54,333 bases of DNA from Deltaproteobacteria bacterium (lineage in GTDB: Bacteria > Desulfobacterota > Binatia > UBA9968): assembly GCA_009692615.1 (NCBI GenBank), contig SHYW01000021.1, positions 1 through 54,333 on the forward strand. Reading direction: 5' to 3'. Shown here one piece after another: positions 9,716-40,216 of the stretch (its first letter is position 1; the number at the start of each line of letters is the position of its first letter). Made by a program: the position numbers and the translations under genes. The notes beneath the pieces were generated by a model. It made no database searches. It had not been told where the DNA came from and saw only the letters and a list, made by a program, of their open reading frames with translations.

Positions 9716-9861
9716 TCTCGCGCCAAGCACGCAAAGGGCGCAAAGGAAGAAAAAAATGAAATTCCGACTTGGCGATCTTGGCGTGCTTGGCGCGAAATCT
9801 TCCGATATCCTTTTTTGCGCTCTTTGCGTTCTTTGCGGTTAAATCTCCGAATCCGAATTTT
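9716..9861. repeat. CTTTGCG / CGCAAAG inverted repeats
   Basis: cgccaagcacgcaaagggcg (9721 on) is followed about 90 bp later by the inverted gcgctctttgcgttctttgcgg and ctccgaatccgaattttct. The second half matches 957-995 and 39660-39710. It lies between convergent genes (MFS 4 and the binding protein). Confidence 0.7.
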
Positions 9862-33827: not shown

Positions 33828-33920
33828 AATTTCACCACAGAGGCTCTAGCGCAGCGTCGCCGCAACCAAGATTCGAAATATCTCTCGCAAAGGCGCCAAG
33901 ATCGCAAAGGTCGGAGAATC
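33828..33920. repeat. Remnants of CACGAAG / CGCAAAGG repeats
   Basis: ttcaccacagaggc resembles the start of the CACGAAG family. atatctctcgcaaaggcgcc matches 6970-6990. No coding sequence is evident before the CMD gene. Confidence 0.55.
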
Positions 33921-34103
33921 GGAATTGCAATCACGGTTTATGATATTATCTTTTGCCTTCCGAACTTGGCATCTCTACGCCTTGGCGAGAGGAATATCCG
34001 ATTCCGAGTTGGTTCGCGTGTTCTAACAGCAGCGCGAGCCGCGCAAACTGTCGGCTATAGTAGTACAGAAACCACAGAGTCTGGATTCCGAAAGGTTAAA
34101 ACA

Positions 34104-34640
34104 ATGAGCAAACTACCCAACGCCACGCGCGAAGCCATGACCGCCGATCAACAGAAAATCTGGGACAAAGTTCACGAAGGCAAAACCGGTGGCGGCGGTC
34201 CCTACTCGATGTTGTTGCACGCGCCGGAGATGGCGCAGCACTTCGCTGCCACCGAGGACTACTTCCGTTTTAATTCTCGTTTGCCCGACGCCGACCGCGA
34301 GACCATCATCCTCACCGCCGCCAGAGAAGTCGAAGCCCACTACGCCTGGAGCCGCCACGAGATCCGCGCCAAGCAGTGCTTGCCCGGCGAAGTCATCGAA
34401 GCCATCCGTGCCCATGCGCCCATCGACAAATTCACCGGCCACACCGCGCTCTTGGTCGAATTCACCCGCACGCTGATGACCGATCACTTCCTGTCGGATT
34501 CGCTACTCAACAGGATGGAAAAAGAACTCGGCCACCCCAAGTTCATCGAGTGCGTCGGCCTGCTCGGCCACTACATCACCATCGGCACGGTGATAAGAAT
34601 GTTCGACGTGCGCCCAGCGGCGGGAACCAAGACGTTCTGA
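34104..34640 (+). CDS. Carboxymuconolactone decarboxylase (CMD/AhpD-fold) family protein without the CxxC
   Basis: A 178-residue all-helical protein from the start MSKLPNATREAM at 34104, with AAAGG upstream; the longer frame is rejected. The core helix reads RETIILTAAREVEAHYAWSRHE. The position of the redox CxxC in AhpD proteins is occupied by non-cysteine residues, so it is not a peroxidase-type member. This subtype is common in aromatic-degradation clusters. The reaction cannot be assigned. It lies between the formamidase-like gene and the isochorismatase on the same strand. Confidence 0.88.
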   Translation: MSKLPNATREAMTADQQKIWDKVHEGKTGGGGPYSMLLHAPEMAQHFAATEDYFRFNSRLPDADRETIILTAAREVEAHYAWSRHEIRAKQCLPGEVIEAIRAHAPIDKFTGHTALLVEFTRTLMTDHFLSDSLLNRMEKELGHPKFIECVGLLGHYITIGTVIRMFDVRPAAGTKTF

Positions 34641-34649
34641 ATTTAATTA

Positions 34650-34756
34650 CCCCCCTTTGAAAAAGGGGGGATGGGGGGATTTGCTTCTTATCGCCCGACA
34701 ACCCGTGATTCAAAGTCAGCCAGTAGGATGGGTTGAGCGTCCGCGAAACCCATCAT
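34650..34756. repeat. CCCCCTTTGAAAAAGGGGG repeat and GGATGGGTT palindrome
   Basis: The hairpin ccccctttgaaaaagggggg is followed by atggggggattt (34652-34683), the same family as at 38455, 49735 and 49838. Then taggatgggttgagcgtccg pairs with aacccatcat (34724-34755), a TAGGATG-type palindrome. Confidence 0.7.
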
Positions 34757-34784
34757 CTGAAACTACGCGCAATGGAGGAACGAT

Positions 34785-35357
34785 ATGGCAACGATAACAT
34801 TACAGATGCCCGCACTACCCGAGCCGGTCCGAGTTGTTCTCAAACCCGCGACCACCGCGTTGTTGATTTTCGATGTCGTCGATCCGATTTGCGCAAAACA
34901 ACCGATTTGCACCGAAGTAATGGTTCCGGCGATTGTCTCGCTGCTGAAGCGGGCGAGAAATGCCGGCGTGCTCGTCTTGTACTCGACTCGCGCTCCCAAC
35001 GTTTCCAAATGGCTGCCTGAGGTTGCTCCCGCTCCGGGCGAACCGATCGTTGAGTCCATTGGACAGGACAGATTCTACAACACAGACCTAGACAAGATGT
35101 TGAAGGCCAAGGGGATTGCGACCGTGATCCTTACCGGCTGGAAGGTCAGCGGCTCGGTGGTCTATACGTCGGTCGGAGCGACGCTGCGAGGTTACACCGT
35201 CGTGGTGCCCACGGATGCCAGCTTAGCCGCAACCGACTACGAGGTGGCAATCGGCCAATTCCAAATACTGAATCAAAATAGCGCCAACGCCGACAACCAG
35301 CCGTTGAAGCCGAACGCCTCGACCTTGAGCCGTACGGATATGATCACGTTTCAGTAA
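34785..35357 (+). CDS. Isochorismatase-like hydrolase with Ser in place of the catalytic Cys
   Basis: A 190-residue protein of the isochorismatase/cysteine-hydrolase fold. Asp30 (LLIFDVVD) is the conserved acidic residue. The block LTGWKVSGSVVYTSVGA is the active-site loop, but position 124, normally Cys in TGxxTxxCV, is Ser. Amidase-type activity is therefore unlikely, while isochorismatase- or binding-type function remains possible. The ATG follows atggaggaacgat. The last 165 bp of the conserved part are repeated downstream (36215-36379) around an inserted two-gene module. The C-terminal DMITFQ after the repeat end differs from the copy, suggesting this gene's tail was altered by the insertion. 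Confidence 0.88.
   Translation: MATITLQMPALPEPVRVVLKPATTALLIFDVVDPICAKQPICTEVMVPAIVSLLKRARNAGVLVLYSTRAPNVSKWLPEVAPAPGEPIVESIGQDRFYNTDLDKMLKAKGIATVILTGWKVSGSVVYTSVGATLRGYTVVVPTDASLAATDYEVAIGQFQILNQNSANADNQPLKPNASTLSRTDMITFQ
35173..35337 (+). repeat. Direct repeat, copy 1 (isochorismatase 3' end)
   Basis: This stretch of 165 bp matches 36215-36379 at a constant offset of 1042 bp without gaps. By my reading 12 bases differ: nine are silent third-position or Leu changes, and two codons change the residue (Arg to His, Gln to Glu). It flanks the small-gene module on its left. Confidence 0.9.
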
Positions 35358-35509
35358 ACCGGCTAGTGCGATGAGAGTTCGTACTTTGGTTAACTCGCTT
35401 AGAGACCCTCGCATTCATAAATACTTCACTGATCTTAGCCATAACGTTTTGGGTGAGAGACCCGGTCCGCCGCGTCCTTTCAACCCGAAGGTTAGCCGTT
35501 CTCTCGGCT

Positions 35510-35737
35510 TTAACGTGTAGGAGCTGAAAGGGCACGCTCCACCTCACGTGGAAGCGTCAGCGGGACGAAACAATCTGCGGGATAGAGGTAGTCCTCGCCG
35601 GACTCGTCAATAACCCTGATGTGCTTATCCTTGGCAGCGCGCGCATCGGGAAGAATTTGGTAAATCTTCCTGATCTCTAGATCTTCAGCCCCTTCGTTCC
35701 GAACGCAGATCGCAAACTGTTTTTTCTGGTGCTTCAT
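35510..35737 (-). CDS. Small conserved protein of unknown function, second gene of a two-gene module
   Basis: A 75-residue hydrophilic protein. Its sequence style (KQFAICVRNEGAEDLEIRK, HIRVIDESGEDYLYPADCF, REVERAL) looks like a genuine compact beta-rich domain, and I have the impression that similar small proteins recur beside the next gene in other genomes; this cannot be checked here. The start is at 35737, five bases after the stop of the upstream gene at 35743. No toxin or antitoxin family is recognised. It lies inside the insertion flanked by isochorismatase repeats. Confidence 0.7.
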   Translation of the reverse strand: MKHQKKQFAICVRNEGAEDLEIRKIYQILPDARAAKDKHIRVIDESGEDYLYPADCFVPLTLPREVERALSAPTR

Positions 35738-35742
35738 ATGTC

Positions 35743-35976
35743 CTAATCCAAGAATTGCTTAATCTTAAATTTCACTTTCCCGATCCCGTGGGCTTCGTAC
35801 CAGTGTATCTCAGCTCGATGCACGGCGCCACTTCTCAGGCGAACAGTGGCTGATCCCTTCAGTTTTCGCCAACGACCAGTGCCGTAGCGTTTACGAAGTC
35901 GCGCAATATCGCGAATCGATGTTCCAATGGCGATGGGCTCGATACTCTCGATCTCTCCGATGATCTCGAAGTACAT
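35743..35976 (-). CDS. Small conserved protein of unknown function, first gene of a two-gene module
   Basis: A 77-residue basic protein starting MYFEIIGEIESIEPIAIG, with RKRYGTGRWRKLKGSATVRL and ending RAEIHWYEAHGIGKVKFKIK. The positive patch suggests nucleic-acid or ribosome contact, but no domain is recognised. It is followed after five bases by the second small gene, so the two are surely co-transcribed. The arrangement, small size and placement in a mobile-looking insertion resemble toxin-antitoxin or accessory modules, without direct evidence. Base composition is more AT-rich than the neighbours. Confidence 0.7.
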   Translation of the reverse strand: MYFEIIGEIESIEPIAIGTSIRDIARLRKRYGTGRWRKLKGSATVRLRSGAVHRAEIHWYEAHGIGKVKFKIKQFLD

Positions 35977-36206
35977 GCGTTTTCATATGCCACAAAACCG
36001 GGCAAACGGCGAACCGGGCAGCAGAGTAACCGGACGGAGCGCCGTCGAGCCCGGCGCATAGTTAACGATGCAACCGGCGGTGGACGGCGGTTGCGGACTG
36101 CGGCGATAGTTTGCCTACGATTGGCACATCAGCATGCGGCTTCAGAGTAACTTTTGGCTGGCGCCAGGCACGCACGCGTCAAGAAAAAACTCAGAACCCC
36201 CTTTCC
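35977..36206. other. Promoter-side region of the small-gene module
   Basis: It holds aaccgggca repeats (about 35996-36022) and a hairpin gcaaccg / cggttgc at 36070-36094. No coding sequence is supported. I see no attC-like core site. Confidence 0.45.
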
Positions 36207-36384
36207 CCGACCGCTCGGAGCGACGCTGCACGGTTACACCGTCGTGGTGCCCACGGATGCCAGCTTAGCCGCAACCGACTACGAAGTGGCCATCGGCCAA
36301 TTCCAAATATTGAATCAGAACAGCGCGAATGCAGATAACGAGCCGTTGAAGCCGAACGCCTCGACCTTGAGCCGTACGGTATAA
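36207..36384 (+). pseudogene. Isolated 3' fragment of an isochorismatase gene
   Basis: Bases 36215-36379 repeat the 3' part of the gene at 34785, from GATLxGYTVVVPTDAS to NASTLSRT, then end with Val and TAA. Only about 55 codons are present, so it is not functional as an enzyme. Because most differences are synonymous, this fragment comes from a copy that evolved as a working gene, not from a pseudogene drifting for long. Confidence 0.9.
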
Positions 36385-36521
36385 ATCGCGCGCTACGGCA
36401 TAACTACTACGCGACAATGACTTGTTCCACCGTCGCAACAAACTTTGACTTAGCCAATGCCAAATGTCATCGTGAACCAAGCCGCTAAGACGCCTACACT
36501 CAAGTAGAGAAGCACAGAATC

Positions 36522-38399
36522 GTGATCGCCGCTAAACTCAAACAATTATCGCTACGACTCGGCCTGGTGTTCGGACTCTACACGGTGTCCCGATTACTCT
36601 TTCTCCTTTTCAACTATACTTTGTTTCACCAGTCGGACATCAACCACGTAGTCACCGCGTTCCTCATCGGCGCGCGCTACGACATCGCGGCGATCTGCCG
36701 CACCAACGCGATTTTTATCGTGTTGTCGATGCTGCCGTTCCTCTGGGTTGAAAAGCGCGGCTACCAAACGTTTCTCAAGTGGCTGTTGGTGATTTCCAAC
36801 TTGCCGTTTCTGATTCTCAACGTCGTCGACTACGAATACCATAAGTTCACCGGCCAACGCGCGTCGTTAAGTCTGCTCGACATGGGCAACGACATCTCTA
36901 ATCAAATCGGCCAGCTGTCGTTTCACTATTGGTATCTCACCGCGATCAGCATCTTGGTCGGCCTCGCGCTTTGGTATTTGCAACCGGCGCGGCCCATCGT
37001 CACGAATTCGTCGGACGCTTTTTCGCGAGCTAAAAGTTGGCTGATCTTAGTGCTCGTGCTTACGGTCGCCGTCATCGGCGGGCGTGGCGGCTGGCAGCGA
37101 CGCCGGCTCACCACGGCGCTGGCCCAGGTCGGCGACAAAGACAACTTGTCGCAACTGGCGCTCAACTCCACCTACACGTTCATCAACAGCCAGCGCAAAT
37201 GCGACACCGGCAGTTCGACCAAGGTTCACTACTTCGCCAACGATGAAGAACTTAGAAAACAATTTCCTAAAGCAAATTTTCTACCGCGCCGATCGGAGCG
37301 AGCGGCGCAAGTCTATGACAATGTCGTGATCATTATCGTCGAAAGTTTATCCGCTGAATTCACCGGCACCGGCATCTCCGGTCGAAGCTTTACACCATTT
37401 TTAGATTCCCTAGCGCAGCGCGGTGTGTACTTTCGCAACGGCTTCGCCGACGGCCGACGCTCCATCGACGCGCCGCCGTCGATCCTCGCCGGCTTGCCCC
37501 ATCTCAAGGACGAAACTTTTTTCTGCACCCAGTCCAAGCGGCTGCACGGCCTCGGTTCGATATTAAAGGAGCAAGGCTACAACACCAGTTTTTTTCACGG
37601 CGGCAAGAACGGCACCATGTCCTTCGATACCTTCTCGCTGCGCATGGGCTTCGATACTTACTACGGCCTCAACGAGTATCCCAAACCGCAAGACTCGGAC
37701 GGCATCTGGGGCATCTATGACGAACCCTTCATGCAGCACTTCGCCCAGCAATTGGCGCAGCGCCGCCAGCCGTTCGCTAGCGCGCTGTTCACGCTGAGCA
37801 CCCACAACCCGTACAAAGTGCCGGATAAATACGCCGACGTTCTGCCCACCGGCGATCAGCCGATTCTGCAAACCGTCGCCTACTTCGATCTGGCGCTAAA
37901 AAACTTTTTTGCCACCGCCGAAAAAATGGACTGGTACAAAAATACGCTCTTCATTGTCACCGGCGATCACATCGGCCCGCCGAAATCCATCATGCCGCGC
38001 ATGATCGATAGCTACCGCGTGCCCATTGTGTTTTTTCATCCGAGCCGACAGCTGCCGCCGGTGCGCCGCGACCGCATCGTTCAACACGTCGATATCGCGC
38101 CGAGCATTTTAGATTACCTAGGGATCGTGACCAGCAAGCAGCTGCCCTTCGGCCACACGATTTTCGACACCGCCTACGAAGGATTGGCGCTGGGCCAGAA
38201 GGGCGGTAATTATTGGATCGCCGACAAAAATTATTATTTAGAATTTCGCCTCGGCGCGCCGAGCCAACTCTTCGCCCAAGCGCAACTCGACACACCGGTC
38301 AGCGACAAACCGGAGATCCAAGCCCAGCTCGAAAACAAACTCAAAGCCTACATTCAGTGGTTCAACAACGGCTTGGCGGAAGACAAGTTGTATCGCTGA
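36522..38399 (+). CDS. LtaS-like membrane sulfatase (phosphoglycerol/phosphoethanolamine transferase family)
   Basis: A 625-residue inner-membrane protein with a GTG start. About five membrane segments lie in residues 10-200, followed by an extracytoplasmic sulfatase-fold domain (~240-610). The domain shows VIIIVESLSAEF (metal Glu), the nucleophile region GRRSIDAPPSILAGLP with Ser where LtaS has Thr, SFFHGGKNGTMSFD, FTLSTHNPY, and FIVTGDHIGPP (metal Asp-His). Such proteins transfer glycerol-phosphate or similar groups to glycans (LtaS, MdoB/OpgB). In a Gram-negative cell, modification of periplasmic glucans or envelope glycans is the likely role. No partner genes are adjacent. Confidence 0.9.
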   Translation: MIAAKLKQLSLRLGLVFGLYTVSRLLFLLFNYTLFHQSDINHVVTAFLIGARYDIAAICRTNAIFIVLSMLPFLWVEKRGYQTFLKWLLVISNLPFLILNVVDYEYHKFTGQRASLSLLDMGNDISNQIGQLSFHYWYLTAISILVGLALWYLQPARPIVTNSSDAFSRAKSWLILVLVLTVAVIGGRGGWQRRRLTTALAQVGDKDNLSQLALNSTYTFINSQRKCDTGSSTKVHYFANDEELRKQFPKANFLPRRSERAAQVYDNVVIIIVESLSAEFTGTGISGRSFTPFLDSLAQRGVYFRNGFADGRRSIDAPPSILAGLPHLKDETFFCTQSKRLHGLGSILKEQGYNTSFFHGGKNGTMSFDTFSLRMGFDTYYGLNEYPKPQDSDGIWGIYDEPFMQHFAQQLAQRRQPFASALFTLSTHNPYKVPDKYADVLPTGDQPILQTVAYFDLALKNFFATAEKMDWYKNTLFIVTGDHIGPPKSIMPRMIDSYRVPIVFFHPSRQLPPVRRDRIVQHVDIAPSILDYLGIVTSKQLPFGHTIFDTAYEGLALGQKGGNYWIADKNYYLEFRLGAPSQLFAQAQLDTPVSDKPEIQAQLENKLKAYIQWFNNGLAEDKLYR

Positions 38400-38454: not shown

Positions 38455-38550
38455 GATCCCCCCTTTAAAAAAGGAGGGACGAGGGGGGATTTTCTTATGC
38501 GCGCGGAACATAAATCCCCCTCAGTCCCCCTTTTCCAAAGGGGGAAGTTC
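38455..38550. repeat. CCCCCTTT...AAAGGGGG repeat pair
   Basis: gatccccccctttaaaaaag and gagggacgaggggggatttt are followed about 25 bp later by the inverted aaatccccctcagtccccct and tttccaaagggggaa. It lies between convergent genes and may end transcription from both. Confidence 0.75.
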
Positions 38551-39745: not shown

Positions 39746-40216
39746 TCATTCTTCTTCGCCGAGCATGGTGCCTCGGCAGCGCTTGGCGCCACACAAACAA
39801 GCATGCTCGCGCTTGGCTTTCTTGGTGTGCTTCTCGCCGATTTGTAGATTGTAATCGTAAGCAAGCTCTTCGCCGGGACGGATATCGCGCCGCGCTTCGA
39901 TAAACACCCGATGATTTTTTTCCTCGATCTCGCAGTTGGGCGCGCAGCAGTGGTTGATCCAGCGCGCCGAATTACCGCCGCGGGTCGCATCGATCACCAA
40001 CTCATCGTCCACCGAAAACAGCATGGTGTGCGACGAGTTCTCGTGCAGCCGGCCGAAACGCCGGTCCGCCTCTTTGTCGGTGATCAGCTTGCCCTTATAC
40101 TCGAGAATCCGCGTGCCCTTCGTGATCGGCCGCAAGGCGAATACGCCCCGGCCATGGATCGGCGAGTTGCGCACGACGATTCGCCGTCGAACTTTTTTGC
40201 TATTGGCTTTTTTCAT
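39746..40216 (-). CDS. SET-domain protein (probable protein-lysine methyltransferase)
   Basis: A 156-residue protein that is almost entirely a SET domain. SAM and substrate motifs are present: GRGVFALRPITKGTRILEY (15-40 region), SARWINHCCAPNCE (about 83-96, the NHS/C pseudoknot motif) and GEELAYDYNL (115-124). A post-SET-like cysteine cluster follows (Cys140, Cys142, Cys147 with CLCGAKRCRG). The N-terminus is lysine-rich. SET proteins in bacteria methylate ribosomal or DNA-binding proteins or, in pathogens, host proteins. The target here is unknown. It lies 28 bp after the HpaB-like gene on the same strand. Confidence 0.92.
   Translation of the reverse strand: MKKANSKKVRRRIVVRNSPIHGRGVFALRPITKGTRILEYKGKLITDKEADRRFGRLHENSSHTMLFSVDDELVIDATRGGNSARWINHCCAPNCEIEEKNHRVFIEARRDIRPGEELAYDYNLQIGEKHTKKAKREHACLCGAKRCRGTMLGEEE

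Follow-up and report, generated by a model that had tools for sequence, protein, structure and literature searches.

How did two small genes come to lie between two diverged copies of the same piece of an isochorismatase gene, and where did the second copy come from? The question is raised by a locus in the 54,333-nucleotide stretch of DNA analyzed here (contig SHYW01000021.1 of a Deltaproteobacteria bacterium), which we call the window. L-numbers, like the terms 'fragment', 'intact' and 'dioxygenase locus', are labels of this analysis.

Two copies of an isochorismatase gene segment in the window

The intact gene encodes an isochorismatase-family hydrolase of 190 aa (positions 34,785 to 35,357, plus strand; PF00857, E-value 1.5e-22), and its orthologs in the related genomes G001 and G005 are 79% and 81% identical to it, respectively, across all 190 aa. 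Copy A (35,170 to 35,337, plus strand) lies in frame within this gene and ends 20 nt short of its last base, and copy B (36,212 to 36,379, plus strand) is a piece from within an isochorismatase gene that lacks both gene ends and is 92% identical to copy A. The original prediction, that an ungapped direct repeat of 165 bp is present at a spacing of 1042, is borne out, the repeat in fact extending over 168 nt with 155 identical positions, and such a length at 92% identity rules out a chance repeat. Realigning the 165 bp also reproduced the earlier count of 11 differing codons, nine of them silent; over the 168 nt, 12 codons differ in the isochorismatase frame, nine silently and three with a replacement (V/L, R/H and Q/E). 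Both copies had been taken for the 3' end of the gene, but copy B stops before that end: the final six codons of the gene are missing from it, as is the stop codon, and it runs into ...RTV-stop. Copy A continues as ...RTDMITFQ-stop, and the orthologs in G001 and G005 end alike (...RTDMIAFQ and ...RADMIVFQ).

The frame of copy B contains neither a stop codon nor a frameshift. Relative to the orthologs in G001 and G005, copy A differs at 24 and 23 of the 168 sites and copy B at 25 and 25, so that A and B are nearest to each other among the four sequences compared (155 of 168 identical positions versus 143 to 145). When the two orthologs are used as outgroups, changes are found in both copies. 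The predominance of silent changes and the presence of changes in both copies support the view that the second copy would not be a duplicate decayed in situ. The earlier suggestion that both copies have a history as working genes thus agrees with the silent bias and with the changes relative to G001 and G005, and the circular origin that was proposed along with it is retained only among the rival readings below.

Downstream of the intact gene, the interval consists of a stretch leading from the gene end to an attC-like site (35,358 to 35,435), the site itself, the two genes on the minus strand, and the leader of gene 1 followed by about 200 nt of further sequence (35,977 to 36,211). The two ORFs, of 75 and 77 aa, are separated by 5 nt and are as tightly linked as described before. 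The interval is AT-richer overall, as had been noted (GC content 0.531 versus 0.573 in the whole window; 0.512 in the gene pair and 0.488 at 35,338 to 35,509), but its part at 35,977 to 36,211 is not (0.600). It was also rightly said to hold no integrase gene, but the integron-type attC-like site in it had been overlooked. In a DNA search of 35,338 to 36,211 in 29 genomes, the listed matches fall on the attC-like and module parts, and in the gene-1 leader the alignments with the modules of G011, G007 and G009 reach to about 36,010 to 36,015. Rfam returned two matches on 34,000 to 37,500, both far under the gathering scores.

Other repeats and genes of the window include short pieces, at 9,716 to 9,746 and 33,881 to 33,911, of an interspersed repeat of about 200 nt (about 5,420 to 5,635 of L114), which has dozens of matches across related genomes. 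A C-rich/G-rich intergenic repeat of the CCCCCCTTTGAAAAAGGGGGG type occurs in direct and inverted copies at 34,645 to 34,682, 38,456 to 38,492 and 38,512 to 38,549, and a gene for a small SET-domain protein lies at 39,746 to 40,216 (PF00856, E-value 9e-26).

A conserved pair of small genes found in many phyla

Gene 1 (35,743 to 35,976, minus strand) encodes 77 aa with a predicted strand-helix-three-strand fold, and gene 2 (35,510 to 35,737, minus strand) encodes 75 aa with a predicted SH3-like barrel. Searches of the module genes against Pfam, NCBIfam, PADLOC and PHROG gave no significant match (best PHROG E-value 0.025); neither gene reached a known toxin or antitoxin family at the curated cutoffs of Pfam and NCBIfam, or any PADLOC family. 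In a sequence search of solved structures, gene 1 (A1) had three matches with E-values of 0.27 or worse and gene 2 (A2) had none. The AlphaFold model of gene 1 (pLDDT 96.2) has a strand, a helix and three strands, and the fold searches with it gave no clear match (Foldseek best E-value 0.29; VIA best Z 5.0 over 50 residues at 2.6 A, 7jta). The model of gene 2 (pLDDT 88.6) is SH3-like, with a best Foldseek E-value of 4.7e-3 at probability 1.00 and a VIA Z of 7.9 (rmsd 2.7, 68 aligned); this shared fold is itself predicted and shows no function.

We found gene 1 in 20 of the 58 genomes searched, the window's genome included, with up to six matches per genome; the window's genome has three, one of them partial. 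A second intact copy of the module lies on contig 6 of the same genome (L188, 3,440 to 3,918) and is not listed with a straddling repeat. Among genome contigs, at least 576 stretches encode a relative of gene 1, and according to their record titles the best 80 of these span many phyla, including Chloroflexi, Planctomycetota, Cyanobacteria, Acidobacteria and Proteobacteria. Gene 2 adjoins gene 1 in 79 of these best 80 loci, and the distance from the gene-1 stop to the gene-2 start is -13 to +11 nt in all 75 loci that pass the ORF filters. Matches were also found in one plasmid record and at 19 loci on viral contigs with 33-59% identity; phages gave 0.

The module is a conserved gene pair with close spacing that occurs in many phyla and has no name in the libraries searched. 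As in type II toxin-antitoxin (TA) systems, its two small genes are adjacent and closely spaced (75 of 75 filtered loci), and its distribution is patchy, multi-copy and of a mobile type (20 of 58 genomes, at least 576 stretches, and the empty dioxygenase sites described below). From the spacing, the distribution, the company of attC-like sites and the insertion behavior, we infer that the gene pair may be a TA-like system.

An attC-like site downstream of gene 2

A putative integron recombination site lies at 35,436 to 35,499 (minus strand, in the orientation of a gene cassette) and starts 10 nt past the gene-2 stop, that is, directly downstream as in a gene cassette. It aligns with sites scattered in related genomes that have the form GGCTAACC...GGGTTGAGAAGG...CCTCTCACCCAAAACGTTAGGC. 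A covariance model built from 11 sites and used to score 150 candidates per genome matches it with 68 bits (E-value 5.7e-15), a match given by construction because its own sequence is among the 11, and finds two sites in the window's genome, one of which is the window's. The canonical core sites of integrons are RYYYAAC and GTTRRRY. The window reads GGCTAAC and GTTATGG, and several sites of its family read GTTAGGC; since the core boxes of the window are thus degenerate, we call the site attC-like and do not file the module as a cassette.

Integron integrases above the cutoff were found in nine of the 29 genomes searched; we counted only such matches because the family gives sub-cutoff signals in all 14 control genomes. 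In the window's genome, we found an integrase fragment below the cutoff and no complete integrase. Small arrays with sites in the same orientation, about 650-750 nt apart, occur on contig 16 of G009 (L179, 1 to 1,960; the third site is weak, 28 bits) and on contig 121 of G012 (L174, 3,540 to 4,770), and they enclose TA-like genes: a PIN protein with a small partner, Gp49 with HTH_37, and DUF433 with a sub-cutoff DUF5615. Other sites of the family follow other kinds of genes, for example those of 286-aa and 448-aa proteins. Scanning for an attC motif after gene 2 gave hits in 8 of 147 stretches versus 7 of 636 control stretches, with the reverse reading also at 8 of 147, so carriage beside attC is seen for few module copies. 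On contigs of Chloroflexota, Thiocystis, Halochromatium and Dadabacteria (L125, L124, L110 and L074), the gene pair is followed by an attC-like motif, and this neighborhood is therefore wider than the window's family. At a HicA locus flanked by copies of an acyl-CoA dehydrogenase gene end (L308, 1,264 to 1,328 and 1,369 to 1,459 on contig 78 of G004), an attC-like site of the same kind lies just outside the fragment.

Straddling repeats recur around the module and around known toxins

For each module copy, we aligned the left flank with the right flank, each of up to 1500 nt, and counted scores of at least 60. Among the 80 contig loci, 16 of the 76 scorable ones reached this score versus 4 of 126 shifted sites of the same loci (p 1e-4). 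In the merged set of 154 distinct copies, of which 142 are scorable and to which the 19 viral loci were offered too, 27 of the 142 have a direct repeat versus one with an inverted repeat (Fisher p 6e-8). Flanking direct repeats of the order of 100 bp are therefore a property of the window (168 nt) and of 27 of the 142 copies, and not the one-off that the original prediction had assumed. The gene ends concerned are unrelated to each other, and include those of trypsin-like, zinc dehydrogenase, LigB dioxygenase and MreB genes. Three loci counted here are not the pattern, namely L095, where the repeat is a piece of gene 2, and L246 and L035, where it is an interspersed repeat; they were kept in the counts.

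Known toxins of related genomes gave a similar rate. With the toxin gene alone as the center and among the best-scoring loci, which were the ones fetched (full flanks in 21 of 30 and 23 of 30), ParE had 4 of 21 and HicA 6 of 23 loci with a repeat, together 10 of 44, versus 22 of 108 full-flank loci of the module (Fisher p 0.83). Thus, the arrangement is shared with TA modules and not peculiar to this pair, and we dropped the idea of a new kind of element specific to it. Four ParE/HicA loci look alike in that, beyond the toxin gene, they repeat the end of a neighboring gene, which codes for an acyl-CoA dehydrogenase (88%), a radical SAM protein (93%), an FHA protein (99%) or a LuxE-like protein (100%). 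Two of the ten control loci, L327 and L292, are tandem paralogs and ankyrin-like repeats and not the pattern, and they too were kept in the counts; some of the ten have no assigned gene. Copy identities range from 71% to 99% at the module loci and from 78% to 100% at the ParE/HicA loci.

Relatives and empty sites

The isochorismatase orthologs of G001 and G005 have no module and no second copy nearby, but they lie in other neighborhoods, and each of these genomes has a single match to the copy-B stretch, namely its own ortholog. No relative with the same neighborhood as the window (esterase, CMD-like gene, isochorismatase, sulfatase) was found, and hence no syntenic empty site; the nearest relatives of the sulfatase, in G003 and G004, lie near contig ends.

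Empty sites do occur at the dioxygenase locus, where the comparison covers loci of 19 out of the 25 family genomes that we searched. In eight of the 19 the dioxygenase gene is followed directly by GDT1 with no module, and in eight others GDT1 is not inside the fetched flank. The order in G017 is dioxygenase, module, fragment, ORF170 and GDT1, and that in G010 is dioxygenase, GDT1, module and fragment; contig 54 of the window's genome (L337, 2,623 to 2,928) has GDT1 and then a gene-2 homolog (67.5%), with gene 1 mostly missing. Between G010 and G017, the intact genes are 90.2% identical, the modules share 380 of 487 positions, and the fragments are 77% identical. The G010 fragment is closer to the intact gene of G017 (81.3%) than to its own (77.3%), over 132 nt and with low tree support; support values of the dioxygenase tree are low in general, and its G002 sequence is short (91 nt, contig end). 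This comparison fits a fragment that would have traveled with the module, within the limits of 132 nt and low support.

Coding history of the fragments

Silent and replacing codon differences between intact gene and fragment number 9:3 in the window, 4:1 in L135, 2:1 in L090, 9:5 in L114, 12:12 in L122, 0:3 in L097, 6:1 in L088, 5:4 in L081 and 5:4 in L078. These nine of the twelve counted loci were chosen for a combined test as 3'-side copies beside an intact ORF, with L097 kept. Those left out are L127 (0:4, with two stop codons) and L107 (9:18), which are 5'-end or internal copies, and L221 (2:3), a mid-gene copy. We ran 1000 simulations in which a duplication left the fragment to drift neutrally and kept the intact gene under selection (omega 0.1). 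The nine chosen loci have 34 replacing codons versus 57.8 expected, and 0 of the 1000 simulations were as low (lowest 44); the window alone gave P 0.007, and none of the nine fragments contains a stop codon. Over all twelve loci the bias is weaker, with 59 replacing among 122 changed codons. Among the TA controls, L308 (8:2) and L280 (4:1) lean silent, L313 has one replacing difference in 59 codons, and L300 has none in 22.

Since there are fewer replacing codons than neutral drift would leave, the fragments, taken together, appear to have been coding for much of the time since they split from the resident genes. They would therefore be alleles from elsewhere, or else the resident genes were later overwritten by imports. 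This indicates that the second copy has a coding history of its own. On whether the repeat derives from the resident target, the silent bias points toward a foreign allele and the identical copies of L300 toward duplication.

Possible origins of the arrangement

We hold with moderate confidence that a mobile TA-like two-gene module, accompanied here by an attC-like site, entered on foreign DNA together with part of a related isochorismatase gene. One junction of the donor DNA would have formed by homologous recombination with the resident gene end and the other without homology, and the module would thereby have come to lie between the intact gene and a diverged fragment of that gene. Such one-sided homologous joining is the mechanism that seems most likely to us, and any role of the attC-like site in mobilization, like the TA-like function, is likewise put forward as conjecture. 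A Helicobacter locus described in PMC4615327 offers a parallel, in which incoming DNA homologous at one junction and non-homologous at the other produced a duplication that encloses the insertion. Several observations weigh against entry on foreign DNA. The ParE/HicA cases L300 and L313 look as expected from simple duplication of the target; the loci of the combined test were chosen, all twelve give 59 of 122, and the fragment of the left-out L127 has two stops; a silent bias could likewise arise if a simple duplication was followed by imports into the intact gene; the G010 signal consists of 132 nt with low tree support; and no empty site was found for the window, nor does any library model match the pair at its cutoff.

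The same L300 and L313 copies, being identical or nearly so, are in keeping with an insertion in which about 170 bp of the resident gene were duplicated as a long target duplication and the copies then drifted, a reading that we regard as unlikely though deserving attention. The wide range of copy identities suits it as well, and its architecture and repeat length are those of restriction-modification insertions, whose repeats are 'in the order of 100 bp' according to PMC3874152. What speaks against it is the silent bias in the module and TA cases (the combined test, L308, L280 and the window itself), unless later imports into the intact gene mimicked that bias. A circle bearing the module together with a foreign part of the gene, integrated by a Campbell-type crossover as first proposed, would account for an intact gene, a module and a foreign-looking fragment in direct orientation, and such a circle could be set free again if the copies recombined. 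However, the native gene end would then be expected in copy B, which lacks it, so that a later deletion has to be added, and in G010 GDT1 stands between the dioxygenase gene and the module-fragment unit; we judge the circle improbable. The data would be explained just as well by a linear piece of donor DNA, attached through homology at one of its sides.

It seems very unlikely that a full second isochorismatase gene once stood at 36 kb in tandem, that the module landed between the two copies and that the second gene then decayed. The mutual nearness of A and B among the four sequences would follow from such a history, but G001 and G005 show only their own orthologs, copy B has neither frameshift nor stop, and the pattern recurs with MreB, trypsin-like, LigB dioxygenase and zinc dehydrogenase genes, whose aligned copies span 98-138 columns. 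Equally remote is an arrival purely by an integron integrase at a secondary site, with a repeat of unrelated cause. The attC-like site stands in cassette position and integrases were found in nine of 29 genomes, but the window's genome shows an integrase fragment only, we know of no cassette insertion that duplicates a neighboring gene, and in L114, L122, L088 and L138 the right-hand copy starts -3 to +13 nt from the gene-2 stop, which leaves no room for an attC site.

That known TA genes of related bacteria show the arrangement too suggests that gene pairs like this may spread with a piece of a neighboring gene. A bolder reading, which we offer tentatively and think rather doubtful, is that the pair is an undescribed TA (or defense) family and that a 'homology arm', a piece of the neighboring gene end that travels along, serves the spread of TA-type modules in general: it would let them enter the same gene end of a new host through ordinary recombination, with no need of an integrase and no broken gene.

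Comparison with known systems

To our knowledge, there is no settled account of how small TA-type modules move in the absence of a transposase. The silent-change test points to repeats with a coding history of their own around several modules, which plain target duplication does not predict. If general, this would provide a simple and testable route of spread, in which the homology is carried along from the previous neighbor; it would also serve as a marker in searches for new modules and explain their position at gene ends. In a literature search of limited extent, we came across no description of foreign gene ends flanking TA modules.

The closest resemblance is to restriction-modification units that insert with a long target duplication (Nobusato et al. 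2000, as cited in PMC3874152 and PMC1643837; see also PMC3031569), since in both cases a small gene unit lies between direct target repeats of about 100 bp, the targets vary, and no known mobile element is linked. However, the unit here is a pair of proteins of about 75 aa, most differences between the copies are silent, which gives one of them the look of a foreign allele, and the arrangement is also found around some ParE and HicA modules. Like type II TA systems (ParE/RelE, HicAB, VapBC, HigBA), the module consists of two small genes with close spacing, is present more than once in some genomes and scattered over phyla, is found beside attC-like sites and has a similar rate of straddling repeats. 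It differs from them in having no significant match to a TA or defense family and a gene-1 fold with no clear match.

Clusters of attC sites that lack an integrase are known as CALIN. The module resembles integron cassettes and CALIN in that its attC-like site directly follows the gene-2 stop and belongs to the site family of the TA-like cassettes in relatives, but it has a single site with degenerate core boxes, gene-end repeats lie beside it, and no complete integrase was found in the window's genome. In Escherichia coli, the element e14 replaces the end of icd on integration; the gene stays intact, and the displaced end, with silent differences, comes to lie on the far side of the element. 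The locus described here likewise combines an intact gene with a displaced and silently differing gene end on the far side, but it does so with no integrase within the unit and at many unrelated target genes.
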